NCBI GenBank assembly: GCA_947501265.1
Contig: CANMVY010000015.1
Coordinates: forward strand, 1-45,255
DNA: 45,255 nucleotides
Direction of reading: 5' to 3'
DNA from: Bacteroidota bacterium
GTDB lineage: Bacteria; Bacteroidota; Bacteroidia; UBA7662; CANHCV01
Within the stretch, counting starts at the first letter, position 1. Each line of letters begins with the position of its first letter. A program made the position numbers and the translations under genes. Shown piece after piece: positions 22,541 to 43,205 of this stretch. The notes under the pieces were generated by a model. The model worked only from the letters and a program-made list of their open reading frames with translations. It was not told the origin of the DNA and made no database searches.

Positions 22541-22574
22541 AAAAAGCCCCTCGAAGAAATTCGGGGGGCTTTTT
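22541..22574. terminator. Bidirectional terminator between typA and the Cys4-cluster gene
   Basis: AAAAAGCCCCTCGAA (22541-22555) pairs with TTCGGGGGGCTTTTT (22560-22574) around GAAA, with one G-U pair. A and T runs flank the stem, so it can end both the typA transcript and the convergent minus-strand transcript whose gene stops at 22576. Confidence 0.88.
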
Positions 22575-22575
22575 G

Positions 22576-23715
22576 TTAGAGGGATTTTTTTGGTTGACTG
22601 ATTTTTTTTATTCCTCCGTTTGGACCTTGGATGATGAAATACTCTGCTAAATCCGTACCTAACATTTGAATGAATTTTCGTTTTATTCGCGATATTTTTT
22701 CGCTTGCCGAGTTGGATAAGGGGTGAATTAAATCATCGATTCGAGATTCCAATAAAGGTAAATTGGTTTCAGTCGTGGCACTTTGATAAAGTCCAAGTAG
22801 TTCGGTTTTGTAATCACCTAAATGATTCAGCTTGATTCCTTTGGGATGATTTAGGAAAAAGCAATAAATCGTCATTTCAAGTGGATTTAGTTTGATCTCT
22901 AATTCATTCAATTCGGGGAAAATTATTTTTCCGTTTTCTTTTTCAATGTGGTACGTTGGAATAACCTTTAGTTTATTGAACCTTTCCCGAAATAGCATGT
23001 TGGATCGAACCGACTCCATGACTTTCAGAACTTGCTGCAGCAAAGGTTGCGGAACGGATGAAGCTTCAATCTTCTCCCAACAATCCGGACAAATATCGGC
23101 CGTTCTCATTTTTATACTGACTTCCTTTTTTACTTTGCACAAATCCATCATGCACCCAATCGATGTATGATGCGTAGATTGGATGTATTTTTTATAAGAT
23201 TTGAAAATCAAGTTTTTTAAAATGTGGGTAGCAATTTGATAGGCTACGGGAAAAGTTGGTTCACTCAGTGCGAAATAATTCCAATGAAGCAGGTGAATGA
23301 AATAATTGTTTCTCACATTCAAATCATTTCCAACAAACCAATTGAGGTGATTCCCTTTGTAAGTAAGTAGAAAAACCAGATCTCGGGCTGGAATATCATT
23401 TTCCAATCGAAAAGATTGAGTGATGCTAAAAAAAGAATCCCAAGCATACGTTCGAAAATCTTTTGGTTCCAAAAAATCGTTGATGTCCGAAAAATCACAT
23501 CCATTAATATCAGAATCTGGAATAGAATAGAATTTCTGAATTTCTGAATTTTTTATCGACTGAATTCCCAATAAACTTCCTTCATCTTCAAAAGCTTTCG
23601 GTTCACGAACATAATTCCACCGAGCAGGACCATTAAACTGATTTAGAAAATCGAAGATGGATTCTGCGACGATATCGTGGACTTCGGCTGTACGAATTAA
23701 ATGAACATGAATCAT
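22576..23715 (-). CDS. Unknown protein with CX4C/CX2C cluster and Bacteroidota C-terminal helical domain
   Basis: A 379-residue soluble protein without signal peptide. The middle has four cysteines spaced as a metal site: Cys188 and Cys193 (IGCMMDLC), Cys209 and Cys212 (ICPDC), preceded by His-His (STHHTSIG). The CX4C...CX2C pattern recalls the zinc site of archaemetzincins, but no HExxH is present, so a protease role is not supported. The C-terminal part (about 275-372) contains NPLEMTIYCFFLNHPKGIKL and NSASEKISRIKRKF, which resemble a helical or winged-helix segment I associate with other Bacteroidota hypothetical proteins. The function is unknown. It lies 14 bases after a vWA gene and is probably its partner. 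Confidence 0.78.
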   Translation of the reverse strand: MIHVHLIRTAEVHDIVAESIFDFLNQFNGPARWNYVREPKAFEDEGSLLGIQSIKNSEIQKFYSIPDSDINGCDFSDINDFLEPKDFRTYAWDSFFSITQSFRLENDIPARDLVFLLTYKGNHLNWFVGNDLNVRNNYFIHLLHWNYFALSEPTFPVAYQIATHILKNLIFKSYKKYIQSTHHTSIGCMMDLCKVKKEVSIKMRTADICPDCWEKIEASSVPQPLLQQVLKVMESVRSNMLFRERFNKLKVIPTYHIEKENGKIIFPELNELEIKLNPLEMTIYCFFLNHPKGIKLNHLGDYKTELLGLYQSATTETNLPLLESRIDDLIHPLSNSASEKISRIKRKFIQMLGTDLAEYFIIQGPNGGIKKISQPKKSL

Positions 23716-23729
23716 GTTTAAAGATCAGA

Positions 23730-24344
23730 CTAAAATTTAAATTTAGAAAACTTTGTGGTTGGTTCAGATGATTTTTCTTCACTGTAATCATGTAAAGCGC
23801 TGGAAAAAGTCTTCATCATTTTTGGAATTTCAGATTTTTTGTACTGATGTACTTCTTCTTGCATTAATCCAATCTTACTGCCTTCCGTCCAAGCATCAAA
23901 ATCGGCACCAATCATGTTGAATTGCCAACCTGCTTTCTTTTTTGATTCAATGAGTTCGCTGATATTTTCGTAGGAGAATTCTTTGGATGCGTTTTCGCCT
24001 CCATCGGTAAAAATCATGCAAACCACATCTTCTTCTTCCTTTACAAGATGACTTAATTCGTTCAACGATCTACCAATAGCATCCAACAAGGCGGTCAATT
24101 CTTTCGGATAAATTGCTCCCCAATCGAGATGTTGAATTTCCGTTGTTTTTTTCGACATGAAGTGGGGATGGTAGCTACTCTCAAAGGTCACAAATGTAAC
24201 CTCGATCGGTACTTCTGGAAATTCAAGTTGGGTGGCGTGAAGGGACTCGAATTGGCTTTGAACCGCCAAACGAGTGGAATCCCAACTGGATTGCATGCTT
24301 CCGCTTTGATCGAGAACCAGCAAATAATGTGTTTTTGTTTTCAT
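23730..24344 (-). CDS. von Willebrand factor A (vWA) domain protein
   Basis: A 204-residue cytoplasmic vWA protein. The MIDAS metal site is visible: Asp12-x-Ser14-x-Ser16 (VLDQSGSM) and the later TDGGENAS aspartate. LTALLDAIGRSL and KKAGWQFNMIGADFDAWTEGSKIGL match a widespread single-domain vWA family, related in style to TerY-type proteins and also seen in phages, that likely mediates metal-dependent protein contacts. The start at 24344 (MKTKTHYLLV) is preferred by family pattern; an in-frame ATG at 24362 is possible. It is upstream of the Cys4-cluster gene and apparently in one transcript with it. No ter or MoxR-type ATPase gene is adjacent. Confidence 0.88.
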   Translation of the reverse strand: MKTKTHYLLVLDQSGSMQSSWDSTRLAVQSQFESLHATQLEFPEVPIEVTFVTFESSYHPHFMSKKTTEIQHLDWGAIYPKELTALLDAIGRSLNELSHLVKEEEDVVCMIFTDGGENASKEFSYENISELIESKKKAGWQFNMIGADFDAWTEGSKIGLMQEEVHQYKKSEIPKMMKTFSSALHDYSEEKSSEPTTKFSKFKF

Positions 24345-24595
24345 TGTAATTTGTTTTACCATGCAATGTTCGGCAAGGCAAGCAAATCAAAAAATGAAAA
24401 CAAGCTTGCAAGGTCTTGATATTTATTTTTTGAATGTTTTTGATGTGAAACGAAGTCTTTCCTAAGTTTTTAAAAAAAGCCAACCACGTTGAAAATTTTA
24501 GGGTAGGAAGATCAACCCTTAGTCTTGAAAGAAAATTCGCTTTGTTTCATTCTTCCTCCCGGCAAAGGTTTCATGTTCTAGGGAAGATGGAATGG

Positions 24596-39835: not shown

Positions 39836-40387
39836 TTATTGTTTCGGGTCAAAATTAAAGATGATGGATGGAACAAAAACCTTTTGTTGAAAAGTAGAAT
39901 TAAAGCAATAATTTGCTTTAAACTCGATCGAGTGATTTTTGAGCGGAAAAATGATGCCACCACCCGTTGAAAAACCATGAATTGTTCCTCCAAGTTCTTT
40001 AAAAGTTCCTATTTCAAACAATAACCATCTCCTAACAATAAAGCCCAATTGGTGTTCGATCATCAAGTTATTTTGTTTAGATACCAAATTTGGCGTGATC
40101 CAATTTGAAAGTTCCGAGCTCGGTTGTTGAAAAAACTTAATGCTGTTGGAATAAAAAAGCCACGTTTTTTGATGATTGTTATCTCGCTTTACTTGCATTT
40201 TTATTCTTGAATTGAAGGAATAAGCTAATTGATTTTTTTCAAAGGGATTTTGAAAAAATGAATTAGAAATGGATGAAATGCCAATTCCACCAGAAAAACC
40301 CAAAAAAGGATTGTCTTTTGAAAATGAATTCATAAACACCAAGAGAGAAATAAAAAGAAGGCAAAAATTCGTTTGAAAACGTTTCAT
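39836..40387 (-). CDS. Putative outer-membrane beta-barrel-like protein
   Basis: A 183-residue exported protein (signal peptide MKRFQTNFCLLFISLLVFMNSFS) made of alternating hydrophobic strands, ending FVPSIIFNFDPKQ. It is probably an outer-membrane barrel or part of one. Its tail resembles the end of the neighbouring esterase-CAP fusion: NLMIEHQLGFIVRRWLLFEIG here against SLIPNQEIGMVLFKHLKLGMG there. Its ATG overlaps the stop of that gene (ATGA), so it is the last gene of the cluster. Function unknown. Confidence 0.75.
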   Translation of the reverse strand: MKRFQTNFCLLFISLLVFMNSFSKDNPFLGFSGGIGISSISNSFFQNPFEKNQLAYSFNSRIKMQVKRDNNHQKTWLFYSNSIKFFQQPSSELSNWITPNLVSKQNNLMIEHQLGFIVRRWLLFEIGTFKELGGTIHGFSTGGGIIFPLKNHSIEFKANYCFNSTFQQKVFVPSIIFNFDPKQ

Positions 40388-42594
40388 CTTTGGGGTTTAA
40401 TTTTCAAAGTTGCCGAAGGGAAAAATTGATATTGTTGCATTACGTTTTGGTATCTGCTGCCAAACTCTATTTCATATTCATCGAATTTAAGTCCGATGGA
40501 AGCTGAAAAATAACTTGAATAAAACAACTGACTATTGCGATAATCAAAAAAACTACCCATACCCAATTTTAAATGTTTAAACAAAACCATTCCTATTTCT
40601 TGATTTGGAATTAAACTAACGTTGTTTTGATTGGTAATCCCGTTTAAATTCATTTTTGATGGCATCTTGTTTGTTGGTGGAAAAATGAAAAATCCGGTTT
40701 TGGTAAAAATCCCAAAGTAATATCTTTTCGACTCGTGAAATGGAACTTCGAATTCCAAACCTGCATGATAAACAGAATTTGAAATCAGTTCATTGATATC
40801 AGTCGATGTAATTGTTGAAGTGGAAAAGTAAGGAGCAAAGGTTGTTTTGTTTTCAAACTCCTTTTTTGATTTATCCCTATTTGATTTTTGTTTTGAGGTA
40901 GACTTTTTTGAATCGAATTTGCTTTTGTTTTCTTTTGAATTTGAGGAGGGAGTGGGTTGAACTCCAGGTTTGAAATTTGAGTTATTGGTATTGGTATTGG
41001 TATTGTTATTGTTATTGTTATTGTTATTGTTATTGTTATTGTTATTGTTATTGGTATTGTTATTGGTATTGTTATTGTTATTGGTATTGTTATTGGTATT
41101 GGTATTGGTATTGTTATTGTTATTGGTATTGTTATTGGTATTGGGTTTGTTGTTATTCTGAATTTGAGAAGATATTGTTTCATTTTTTGAAGGAGAATCC
41201 TGGAATTCCTTTTTTAAATCAAAATCTAAAACGGCCATGGATCCATAGGTTTTATGATTTCCGATGCTAACACCGATAGAATGATATTTTGAATCCAAGC
41301 AGATTTTTCGATGACCCAAACTTGAAATTCCTTCATCAACCAATAATTGAAGAACTATTTCTAAGGAATTGCTAAAACCGTAACTGCAACATTCACCATA
41401 CCAACCCTTTGGACATGTAAATCGATCATGCCCAATTTCCCCAGTTGGGCCTTGTTCTTTTACAAAACAATCTGCTAAACGTTTCATTTCTTGGCTTCCT
41501 TCAAGCTTTCCAACCGGAACCATGGAATTTAGGGTCTGTTTCAAAGAAGAAACATAAAATGAATTCATGTTAAACTTTGATGGTTGATCTAATATCTCAA
41601 ATTCGAGAAACTGCCTAGGAAATAATCTCGCTAAATTGATAATCTTAATAACATCCGTTTCTTCCTCCGAAAAGCCATCACAATTCTTTGGATAGGCTTG
41701 ATTGATTTGCCAAGATGTCCATTTCGAAGAAATTACATTTAACGATTGTTCGACTTTTGGGGTAATTATTTGATTGGAATTTTCCTTTGTTGTTTCAGTT
41801 GGCGTTTGAAAACGATTTGTTTCAACTATCTTTTCCTCAATTTCTTCTTTTTCATCCATCCAATAATTAGTAAAGTCTGATTTTTGGTGCTTTAATAACC
41901 ATTGATACAGTTGAGGATCACGAAATAAAAAAGTAAGATCATGTCCTTTTTCTGGATAATAGGTAACTTTTAATGAGTCCCCACCGCCACATTTTTTTAT
42001 CTCATCAATGGTGGTGTATGTTTCTTCCACGGGAACAGGTTCGTCTTTTTCACCATGAAATGTCCAAATAGGCATTTTTTTTAATGCACACGGATTGGTC
42101 CAACCATATTGAATATAGCTTCCTCCACACATGGGTGCCATAGCTGCAATTTTGTGGTTTAACCGTGAACCACAAATCCAGGTTCCAGAACCTCCCATGC
42201 TCATGCCCAAAAGGTAAATTCGAGTGGTATCAATTCTATAGTTTTTTTTGGTCCATTCCAATAATGAGTCAATTAAAGTATAGTCCCATGAACCATCATA
42301 ACATTGAGGCGCTAAAACGATACCCGGTATTTTAAATCCTCTCTTTTGTTCAAAAACAGATCCGTATTGGTTCATGACCAAATTCAAATCATCTCCTTTT
42401 CTTGAATTACCATGAAGGAAAATAAATAGTGGAACATTATTTTTTGAACTTGAGTACCCTAGCGGAGTCGTTATAATGCAGCCATATTGATAAGAATTAC
42501 TTTTCCCGTAAGTGAAAAGTTTTTCATATCCAGGAGGTTTTGGTTGCCCAAAAGCAATAATAGGAAAGAAAAGAATTCCCAAAAACTTCTTCAT
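40384..42594 (-). CDS. Esterase - CAP domain - Asn/Thr linker - barrel-like fusion protein
   Basis: A 736-residue exported multidomain protein; the start at 42594 (MKKFLGILFFPIIAFGQ) gives a signal peptide and an ATGA overlap with the preceding gene. Residues about 35-235 form an alpha/beta hydrolase of the PHB-depolymerase/feruloyl-esterase-like type, with the triad Ser132 (GMSMGGSG), Asp184 (HGEKDEPVP) and His218 (EKGHDL). Residues about 325-475 form a CAP/SCP-like domain (NLARLFPRQFLEF, GEIGHDRF, GHRKICLDSKYHSIGVSIG). Residues about 482-540 are an Asn/Thr tract coded by a hexanucleotide repeat. The last 150 residues are barrel-like strands. Substrate and role are unknown; surface display is likely. 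Confidence 0.84.
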   Translation of the reverse strand: MKKFLGILFFPIIAFGQPKPPGYEKLFTYGKSNSYQYGCIITTPLGYSSSKNNVPLFIFLHGNSRKGDDLNLVMNQYGSVFEQKRGFKIPGIVLAPQCYDGSWDYTLIDSLLEWTKKNYRIDTTRIYLLGMSMGGSGTWICGSRLNHKIAAMAPMCGGSYIQYGWTNPCALKKMPIWTFHGEKDEPVPVEETYTTIDEIKKCGGGDSLKVTYYPEKGHDLTFLFRDPQLYQWLLKHQKSDFTNYWMDEKEEIEEKIVETNRFQTPTETTKENSNQIITPKVEQSLNVISSKWTSWQINQAYPKNCDGFSEEETDVIKIINLARLFPRQFLEFEILDQPSKFNMNSFYVSSLKQTLNSMVPVGKLEGSQEMKRLADCFVKEQGPTGEIGHDRFTCPKGWYGECCSYGFSNSLEIVLQLLVDEGISSLGHRKICLDSKYHSIGVSIGNHKTYGSMAVLDFDLKKEFQDSPSKNETISSQIQNNNKPNTNNNTNNNNNTNTNTNNNTNNNNNTNNNTNNNNNNNNNNNNNNNNNTNTNTNNSNFKPGVQPTPSSNSKENKSKFDSKKSTSKQKSNRDKSKKEFENKTTFAPYFSTSTITSTDINELISNSVYHAGLEFEVPFHESKRYYFGIFTKTGFFIFPPTNKMPSKMNLNGITNQNNVSLIPNQEIGMVLFKHLKLGMGSFFDYRNSQLFYSSYFSASIGLKFDEYEIEFGSRYQNVMQQYQFFPSATLKIKPQR
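40981..41142. repeat. Hexanucleotide simple-sequence repeat, 27 units
   Basis: Twenty-seven six-base units, 16 GTTATT and 11 GGTATT on the plus strand, with eight consecutive identical GTTATT at units 5-12. In the minus-strand coding frame they read AAT-AAC (Asn-Asn) and AAT-ACC (Asn-Thr). Gain or loss of units changes linker length without shifting frame. Confidence 0.97.
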
Positions 42595-43205
42595 CGCATT
42601 TTGAAAAGTGCAAAATCTAATTTTGCCCCAAAGAACCAAAGATTTGGTTCGGTTTGATTGGGGATGAAATTTTCAGGATTTTGGGTCTTTTTTGCCAATA
42701 GATATAAACTTGTTTGCCTTGACTCACTGTTTTTATGTTTTGCTCGATTCGGCTGAAACTGGAATTGAAGGCCACCACCAATGGAATTAAAGTCTTGGGT
42801 GAATCCGAAATCTTTTTTCGTAAAAAAACGATTTACCACGATCGTTGGATTAATTCGAATAACCCCAATGGGAATATTTGATCTTCTTCCTGCCCAAGTA
42901 TCCCTGAAAATGGTTTTACCGCGAAAAACGGGTAGCGATAATTGTCCAAAAAAACTACTGGTAAAATAATTCGTTTGGTTAGACAGTAGAACGTGTCGTT
43001 GAATACCTATTTGAATAAAATCTTTGGGTTGAATAAAAACACCAAAAGATTGCATTCTACCAGAATTTTGAAAGTTTTCGATGTTTCTACCTAAAATATC
43101 CATTTGATAGGCAGCCCCAAATCCAATTCCCCTAGAGGAAGTGGCATACTGTCCAAAACCATTCAAGAATAGAAAACAAAAAATAATTGAAAAGAAACGT
43201 TTCAT
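42591..43205 (-). CDS. Putative outer-membrane protein
   Basis: A 204-residue exported protein (signal peptide MKRFFSIIFCFLFLNGFGQ) with repeated strand-like segments and aromatic girdles (GIGFGAAYQMDILGRN, FIQIGIQRHVLL, GGGLQFQFQPNRAKHK, WFFGAKLDFALFKMR). The start at 43205 is one base after the stop of the PorP/SprF gene and is preferred over 43256 because it gives a clean signal peptide. It probably forms a small outer-membrane barrel; function unknown. It sits between PorP/SprF and the esterase-CAP fusion in the coupled cluster. Confidence 0.78.
   Translation of the reverse strand: MKRFFSIIFCFLFLNGFGQYATSSRGIGFGAAYQMDILGRNIENFQNSGRMQSFGVFIQPKDFIQIGIQRHVLLSNQTNYFTSSFFGQLSLPVFRGKTIFRDTWAGRRSNIPIGVIRINPTIVVNRFFTKKDFGFTQDFNSIGGGLQFQFQPNRAKHKNSESRQTSLYLLAKKTQNPENFIPNQTEPNLWFFGAKLDFALFKMR

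Follow-up and report, generated by a model that had tools for sequence, protein, structure and literature searches.

A vWA protein and a putative pseudo-archaemetzincin regulator form a conserved gene pair in Bacteroidota

Introduction

In a 45,255-nt stretch of Bacteroidota DNA (hereafter the window), a gene for a small vWA protein is followed on the same strand by a gene for a 379-aa protein that resembles no named family. This arrangement raises the question of whether the two genes belong together and, if so, what they might do. An initial annotation, made from the letters of the sequence, had described them as a possibly minimal, undescribed pair in an accessory module. Here we followed the pair, the domains of its second protein and its upstream region through homologous loci and genomes.

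Results

The operon belongs to a Bacteroidota genome of 2.3 Mb, where it lies on contig C15. The vWA gene (23730..24344, minus strand) comes first and encodes 204 aa; the gene for the 379-aa protein (22576..23715, minus strand) follows after a gap of 14 nt, and both open reading frames lie where the initial annotation had placed them. A TypA gene is convergent with the operon, and between them the sequence can be read as a hairpin with a T tract (~22541..22574), a putative terminator common to both transcription units. The closing terminator of the initial annotation can be read in the sequence, but it was absent from the list given by a consensus terminator scan. The accessory-module description fared worse, since the neighbours are housekeeping genes (TypA, a HAD phosphatase and SMC) and no defence island is evident. 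Elsewhere in the window, a 751-aa open reading frame (40384-42639) contains a long Asn/Thr-rich low-complexity run (~40785-41183), possibly a tract of variable length.

The single-domain vWA protein passed the PF00092 model (27.9 bits against a cut-off of 23.8). Its MIDAS is complete, as annotated, with DxSxS at residues 12-16 (D12, S14, S16), T84 and D114, positions that vary little or not at all among 30 homologues. Its predicted structure is that of a typical MIDAS domain and matches integrin I domains with prob 1.00. The best other match was the phage family phrog_7371, and many large-phage proteins were also related. With the vWA-TerF-like model of Ter proteins (PF10138), the protein scored 15.8 bits, below the cut-off of 29.4. 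No MoxR AAA+ gene was present among the open reading frames of the window, in agreement with the earlier remark that none is adjacent, and no MoxR-like cluster recurred near the homologues.

The 379-aa protein matched no Pfam or NCBIfam family and, whether searched as a single sequence or as a profile, found no sequence match in the PDB. Among known anti-phage system proteins (PADLOC), its only match was a weak one to CARF5 (PDLC01904, E 0.003), confined to residues 257-364 in the C-terminal part. No homologue was found in phages or viral contigs, and comparison with predicted viral structures gave no convincing fold match.

An AlphaFold2 model based on 55 sequences (pLDDT 90.2, pTM 0.84; one loose stretch at residues 51-82) splits into a metzincin-like N-terminal domain (residues 1-225; 23041..23715, minus strand) and a putative ToxR-like winged helix (residues 255-375; 22591..22953, minus strand). 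In Foldseek, the best PDB matches were metzincins: profragilysin (3p24), with prob 0.97 and E 0.016, and proteases of the snake-venom and ADAM types, among them 4j4m (prob 0.98, TMt 0.51); the E values for fragilysin and the venom proteases (0.016-0.023) are modest and refer to a predicted model. BaP1, H2-proteinase, acutolysin A and ADAM33, on which the archaemetzincin AfAmzA was superposed in its structure paper (PMC3427221), were also among the matches. ToxR on DNA (8b4d, E 0.23, prob 0.63) ranked lower. In this model, the C-terminal domain, initially called helical, looks instead like a winged helix of the ToxR/OmpR type, whose candidate recognition helix contains S-R-I-K-R-K; no Pfam HTH family matched the domain. 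The same C-terminal domain occurs as a short protein beside ftsZ in a Segatella plasmid (L020:7980-8573) and a Bacteroidota genome (L115:1336-1926).

The four cysteines of the protein (188, 193, 209 and 212) are present as annotated, but C193 does not belong to the core of the site, being N in one homologue (L054) and M, N, D or K in relatives of the domain. The set shared by homologues and relatives comprises H182, G187, C188, D191, C209 and C212 (H182-x4-G-C188-x2-D191-x17-C209-x2-C212; 23080..23172, minus strand), which adds H182, G187 and D191 to the proposed cluster. Archaemetzincins carry the motif HExxHxxGxxHC-x4-C-x-M-x17-C-x2-C (PMC3427221). In this register, the 379-aa protein retains the third zinc-ligand His (H182) and the second, third and fourth Cys (C188, C209 and C212); the distance between that His and the second Cys is unchanged, and the closing CxxC is intact. 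The first Cys of the four-Cys site is absent, and Met is found at 190 in 21 of 55 sequences. None of the 55 homologues has HExxH in the equivalent helix, and the expected active-site helix is occupied by P156 and Y159 (P-x-A-Y) in 53/55 and 52/55 sequences, respectively. By alignment reading, HExxH is also missing from the TIR-, nuclease- and membrane-fused relatives described below. With this motif lost, the N-terminal domain should, from its sequence, be a catalytically dead protease.

Profile comparison supported the relation to archaemetzincins. The 379-aa protein did not match PF07998 (Peptidase_M54), and a relative of its domain (L156) reached E 2e-4 to 7e-4 and 20.1 bits, below the 24.4 cut-off. 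In hhalign, a narrow profile aligned weakly with archaemetzincin (E 0.025); only the broad profile A7 gave P 0.0013, in a co-linear alignment of 165 columns for which a reversed decoy scored 0.5. Conservation of residues 201-210 is biased because the loci were collected by means of a search pattern that covers these residues, around C209. Positions H182, C188, D191 and C212 lie outside that pattern, and the relatives in A7 that were found by profile show all six core residues independently. Fold and profile comparison thus uphold the annotated archaemetzincin-like metal site without HExxH, and we conclude with moderate confidence that the domain is derived from archaemetzincins, yet is not a member of that family. 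The genome of the window also encodes a true archaemetzincin, with HELGHNYGLEHC, on another contig (L126; C4:153606-154061).

We fetched 69 homologous loci, all of Bacteroidota type by record title, and, with the window taken in, counted pairing in the 61 loci that have at least 1 kb upstream. A vWA gene lay upstream on the same strand in 48 of the 61 loci, within 120 nt in 38 (median gap 10 nt) and within 900 nt in 10 more; 3/61 had other vWA arrangements and 10/61 had no vWA gene nearby. After clustering at 80% identity, the same four classes held 34, 7, 3 and 10 of 53, one cluster being counted in two classes. Recurrence in 48 of 61 loci puts the pair far beyond chance, and the ten loci without a vWA gene indicate that this partner is not obligatory. 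Homologues repeatedly adjoin the same vWA family across Bacteroidota, as the initial annotation had proposed, and those without such a neighbour are the minority.

Furthermore, distances in the protein trees of the vWA and the regulator were correlated (Mantel r 0.61, 0/2000 permutations), which points to joint inheritance, but not to contact. A profile search (E < 0.001) detected the 379-aa family in 32 of 395 genomes of the class, some by partial or domain-only matches, indicating a patchy distribution. The vWA/379-aa pair is a real, conserved and undescribed module. Two related loci (L067:5143-6237 and L076) have a reverse-transcriptase gene (RVT_1) immediately before the vWA gene.

Close to the pair, some loci carry a small DUF6717 gene (Pfam, E 2e-34 to 8e-10), and in L062, L063, L066 and L069 the vWA protein itself has an N-terminal DUF6717-type extension. 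DUF6717 was present in 8 of 247 genomes, six of which carry the 379-aa family (co-occurrence p 7e-7 to 1.5e-5, with family-positive genomes estimated at 16 to 25); in a seventh (G178), the vWA gene is beside a regulator that shares only the C-terminal domain. No DUF6717 was found in the window's own genome, so this third partner is optional. Our literature search found no paper on DUF6717. "Undescribed" stands for the pair, as the unit matched none of the curated families and systems scanned, but "minimal" does not, given a frequent third partner. In one further locus (L160:5663-8794), a variant module, a vWA gene is grouped with genes for DUF6717, a class II glutamine amidotransferase and a regulator that has this C-terminal domain without the dead-protease domain; the palindrome described next is absent there.

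Aligning the window with a locus of the same genus (L025) and, separately, six more distant loci revealed one common block upstream of the vWA gene, the palindrome CTT(A/G)CAAGCTTGTAAG. Of the 69 loci, 32 have CAAGCTTG near the operon start, where composition would predict 0.31. With up to two mismatches, the 16-bp form YTTRCAAG[C/G]TTGYAAR preceded 31/48 vWA-led operons and 17/601 other genes in the same loci (Fisher p 1e-28, an optimistic value because the consensus was derived from some of these loci). It also preceded 2/18 regulators without an upstream vWA gene. In 28 of 31 non-redundant loci, the palindrome was followed after 27-33 nt, mostly 29-31, by TTTG or ATTGC, which we take to correspond to the Bacteroidota -7 element. 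With this spacing, the palindrome immediately precedes the -33 region, a frequent binding position of activators.

In the window, the predicted operator is CTTGCAAGCTTGTTTT (24397..24412, minus strand), ~52 nt before the ATG of the vWA gene; a predicted -7 element, CATTGC (24363..24368, minus strand), was read from the sequence ~30 nt downstream of it. This site has three mismatches to the consensus, with a perfect left half and a poor right half (TTTT), and three-mismatch sites also occur elsewhere in the window by chance. The case for it comes from L025, which has one mismatch at the same place. Additional palindromes were found before DUF6717 genes (L064, L090, the divergent gene of L192 and the unlinked gene of L193, on another contig), before second vWA genes (L186 and L196), before the gene following the regulator (L057 and L068) and before the regulator itself in the vWA-less L080. 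Exact palindromes occurred in 99 of 395 class genomes, which is near background; the motif is therefore not diagnostic alone and becomes informative through where it stands, ahead of this operon. A genome-wide scan of the window's genome gave no convincing second palindrome, and since a reversed control pattern was more frequent, we claim no regulon there.

The dead-archaemetzincin domain was also found in other settings. It is fused to TIR_2 in L157, with TPR-S, patatin and ThsB-TIR genes alongside, and to a CAP12-PCTIR TIR domain in L158; in L149 a ThsB-TIR gene lies near it. A 403-aa protein (L156:6153-7361, minus strand) combines it with an Mrr_cat restriction-endonuclease domain. This Mrr_cat fusion protein matches several candidate defence profiles. 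Several Bacteroidota genomes encode standalone versions of 240-254 aa that have a hydrophobic segment at the C terminus (L150, L151, L152 and L155) and are possible membrane effectors. On a Gluconobacter albidus plasmid, a three-gene operon (L146:3799-7024, plus strand) encodes a CHAT protease, a protein with the dead-archaemetzincin domain and an LCAT-like lipase, which gives it the appearance of a so far undescribed conflict operon carried by a conjugative plasmid. No paper joining archaemetzincins and TIR domains was found. The TIR, Mrr, membrane and CHAT settings suggest that the domain is a sensing or regulatory domain used in conflict proteins.

Discussion

On balance, we lean towards reading the two genes as an autoregulated transcription switch, composed of a pseudo-archaemetzincin sensor domain, a winged helix and a vWA co-factor. 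The genes, their pairing, the fold match, the loss of HExxH and the palindrome with its fixed TTTG spacing were computed; the binding of the palindrome by this winged helix, for which the conserved palindrome speaks indirectly, the contact between vWA protein and regulator, the direction of control, the stimulus, the ligand and the function we infer. The dead archaemetzincin-type domain would act as a sensor or docking domain, and the C-terminal winged helix would recognise the 16-bp palindrome that immediately precedes the promoter of the operon encoding it. The vWA protein may bind a ligand or peptide through its MIDAS metal and would probably dock on the sensor domain, thereby setting its state. 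In other species, the DUF6717 protein, beside or fused to the vWA protein, would be a third component, and the palindrome also precedes other genes. The stimulus is perhaps phage or proteotoxic stress, given that the dead-protease domain elsewhere accompanies immune effectors.

The module might instead be a stress-response regulator unrelated to phages, in which the Cys/His site would sense metal, redox state or protein damage and the vWA protein would be chaperone-like. We regard this as plausible but somewhat doubtful. The invariant H/C/C/C motif fits it, the Cys4 site of archaemetzincins has been suggested to be under redox control (PMC3427221), and the palindrome also precedes DprA-family, M28 peptidase and histone-deacetylase-like genes; however, each of these target sites was seen once, at a frequency close to chance, and no finding connects the module with any particular stress. 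A role in anti-phage defence or conflict, in which the dead-protease protein would sense infection, the vWA protein would be an adaptor and the winged helix would use genes elsewhere to launch a suicidal or defensive programme, seems rather unlikely. Its operon has no effector enzyme, its neighbours are mostly housekeeping genes, PADLOC gave nothing beyond the weak C-terminal CARF5 match, and no homologue of the 379-aa protein turned up in phages or viral contigs. On the other side are the kinship of the vWA protein with phrog_7371 and large-phage proteins and the occurrence of the same domain with TIR_2 (L157), CAP12-PCTIR TIR (L158), Mrr (L156), membrane segments (L150-L152, L155) and a CHAT neighbour (L146). 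The defence reading is interesting, but it is not established.

The remaining alternatives concern the 379-aa protein itself. If the palindrome were bound by a different regulator, the protein would act through protein contacts and its C-terminal domain would not bind DNA. The HTH assignment of that domain is indeed structural and weak, and elsewhere the domain occurs without the palindrome (in membrane proteins, beside ftsZ and in a CARF fusion). However, the palindrome lies before or next to the regulator gene in the vWA-less L080, L057, L068 and L078, and it is absent near vWA genes whose regulator lacks the dead-protease domain (L160 and L019), and we consider this explanation unlikely. 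Least credible is the idea that the protein is still a working metallopeptidase whose catalytic site is unusual; the metzincin-like fold and the retained third zinc-ligand His speak for it, but the absence of HExxH from the equivalent helix of all 55 homologues, and by alignment reading from the TIR-, nuclease- and membrane-fused relatives, makes it highly improbable.

A broader and more tentative idea, to which we would give less than even credence, is that the pseudo-archaemetzincin domain is an unrecognised sensor of bacterial immunity. In some systems it would be joined to killing domains (TIR, nuclease or membrane segments, or CHAT as a neighbour); here, joined to a winged helix and with a vWA co-sensor and DUF6717, it would convert detection into a transcription programme through its own palindrome. 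The proposed switch offers a testable function for several unnamed families together, namely the 379-aa protein, the standalone vWA partner and DUF6717, and the 16-bp palindrome with its fixed promoter spacing provides a ready assay. The analysis also points to a dead-protease domain common to TIR-, nuclease- and CHAT-linked proteins.

The closest precedent for the 379-aa protein is CarG of Myxococcus xanthus, an archaemetzincin homologue that is proteolytically inactive and acts in transcription (PMC3427221). CarG is described as retaining the HExxH frame, with Gln for Glu (PMC3427221), whereas the 379-aa protein lacks HExxH altogether and has a winged helix in cis and a vWA partner; it would be a second route from archaemetzincin to regulator, CarG being the known one. 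With Peptidase_M54 (PF07998), it shares the metzincin-like fold and, in register, the third zinc His, the second Cys and the CxxC, but it lacks HExxH, the first Cys of HC-x4-C and a Pfam match. The MoxR-vWA ternary conflict systems (Kaur et al. 2020, PMC7159879) likewise have a vWA protein as a core partner of a multi-protein unit; in contrast, the operon described here has no MoxR ATPase in or near it, its vWA protein is a bare domain and its third partner is DUF6717. By description, iSTAND2 effectors (PMC8195603) also place an inactive zincin-like domain in a conflict setting, although theirs is fused to PUA and STAND domains. CARF5 proteins (PADLOC PDLC01904) resemble the 379-aa protein in their C-terminal part (E 0.003), but it has the dead-protease domain in place of their N-terminal CARF domain. 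Finally, the predicted C-terminal fold gave a modest match to ToxR on DNA and may be related to the ToxR/OmpR-type winged-helix regulators; the 379-aa protein differs from them in having no sequence match to curated HTH families.
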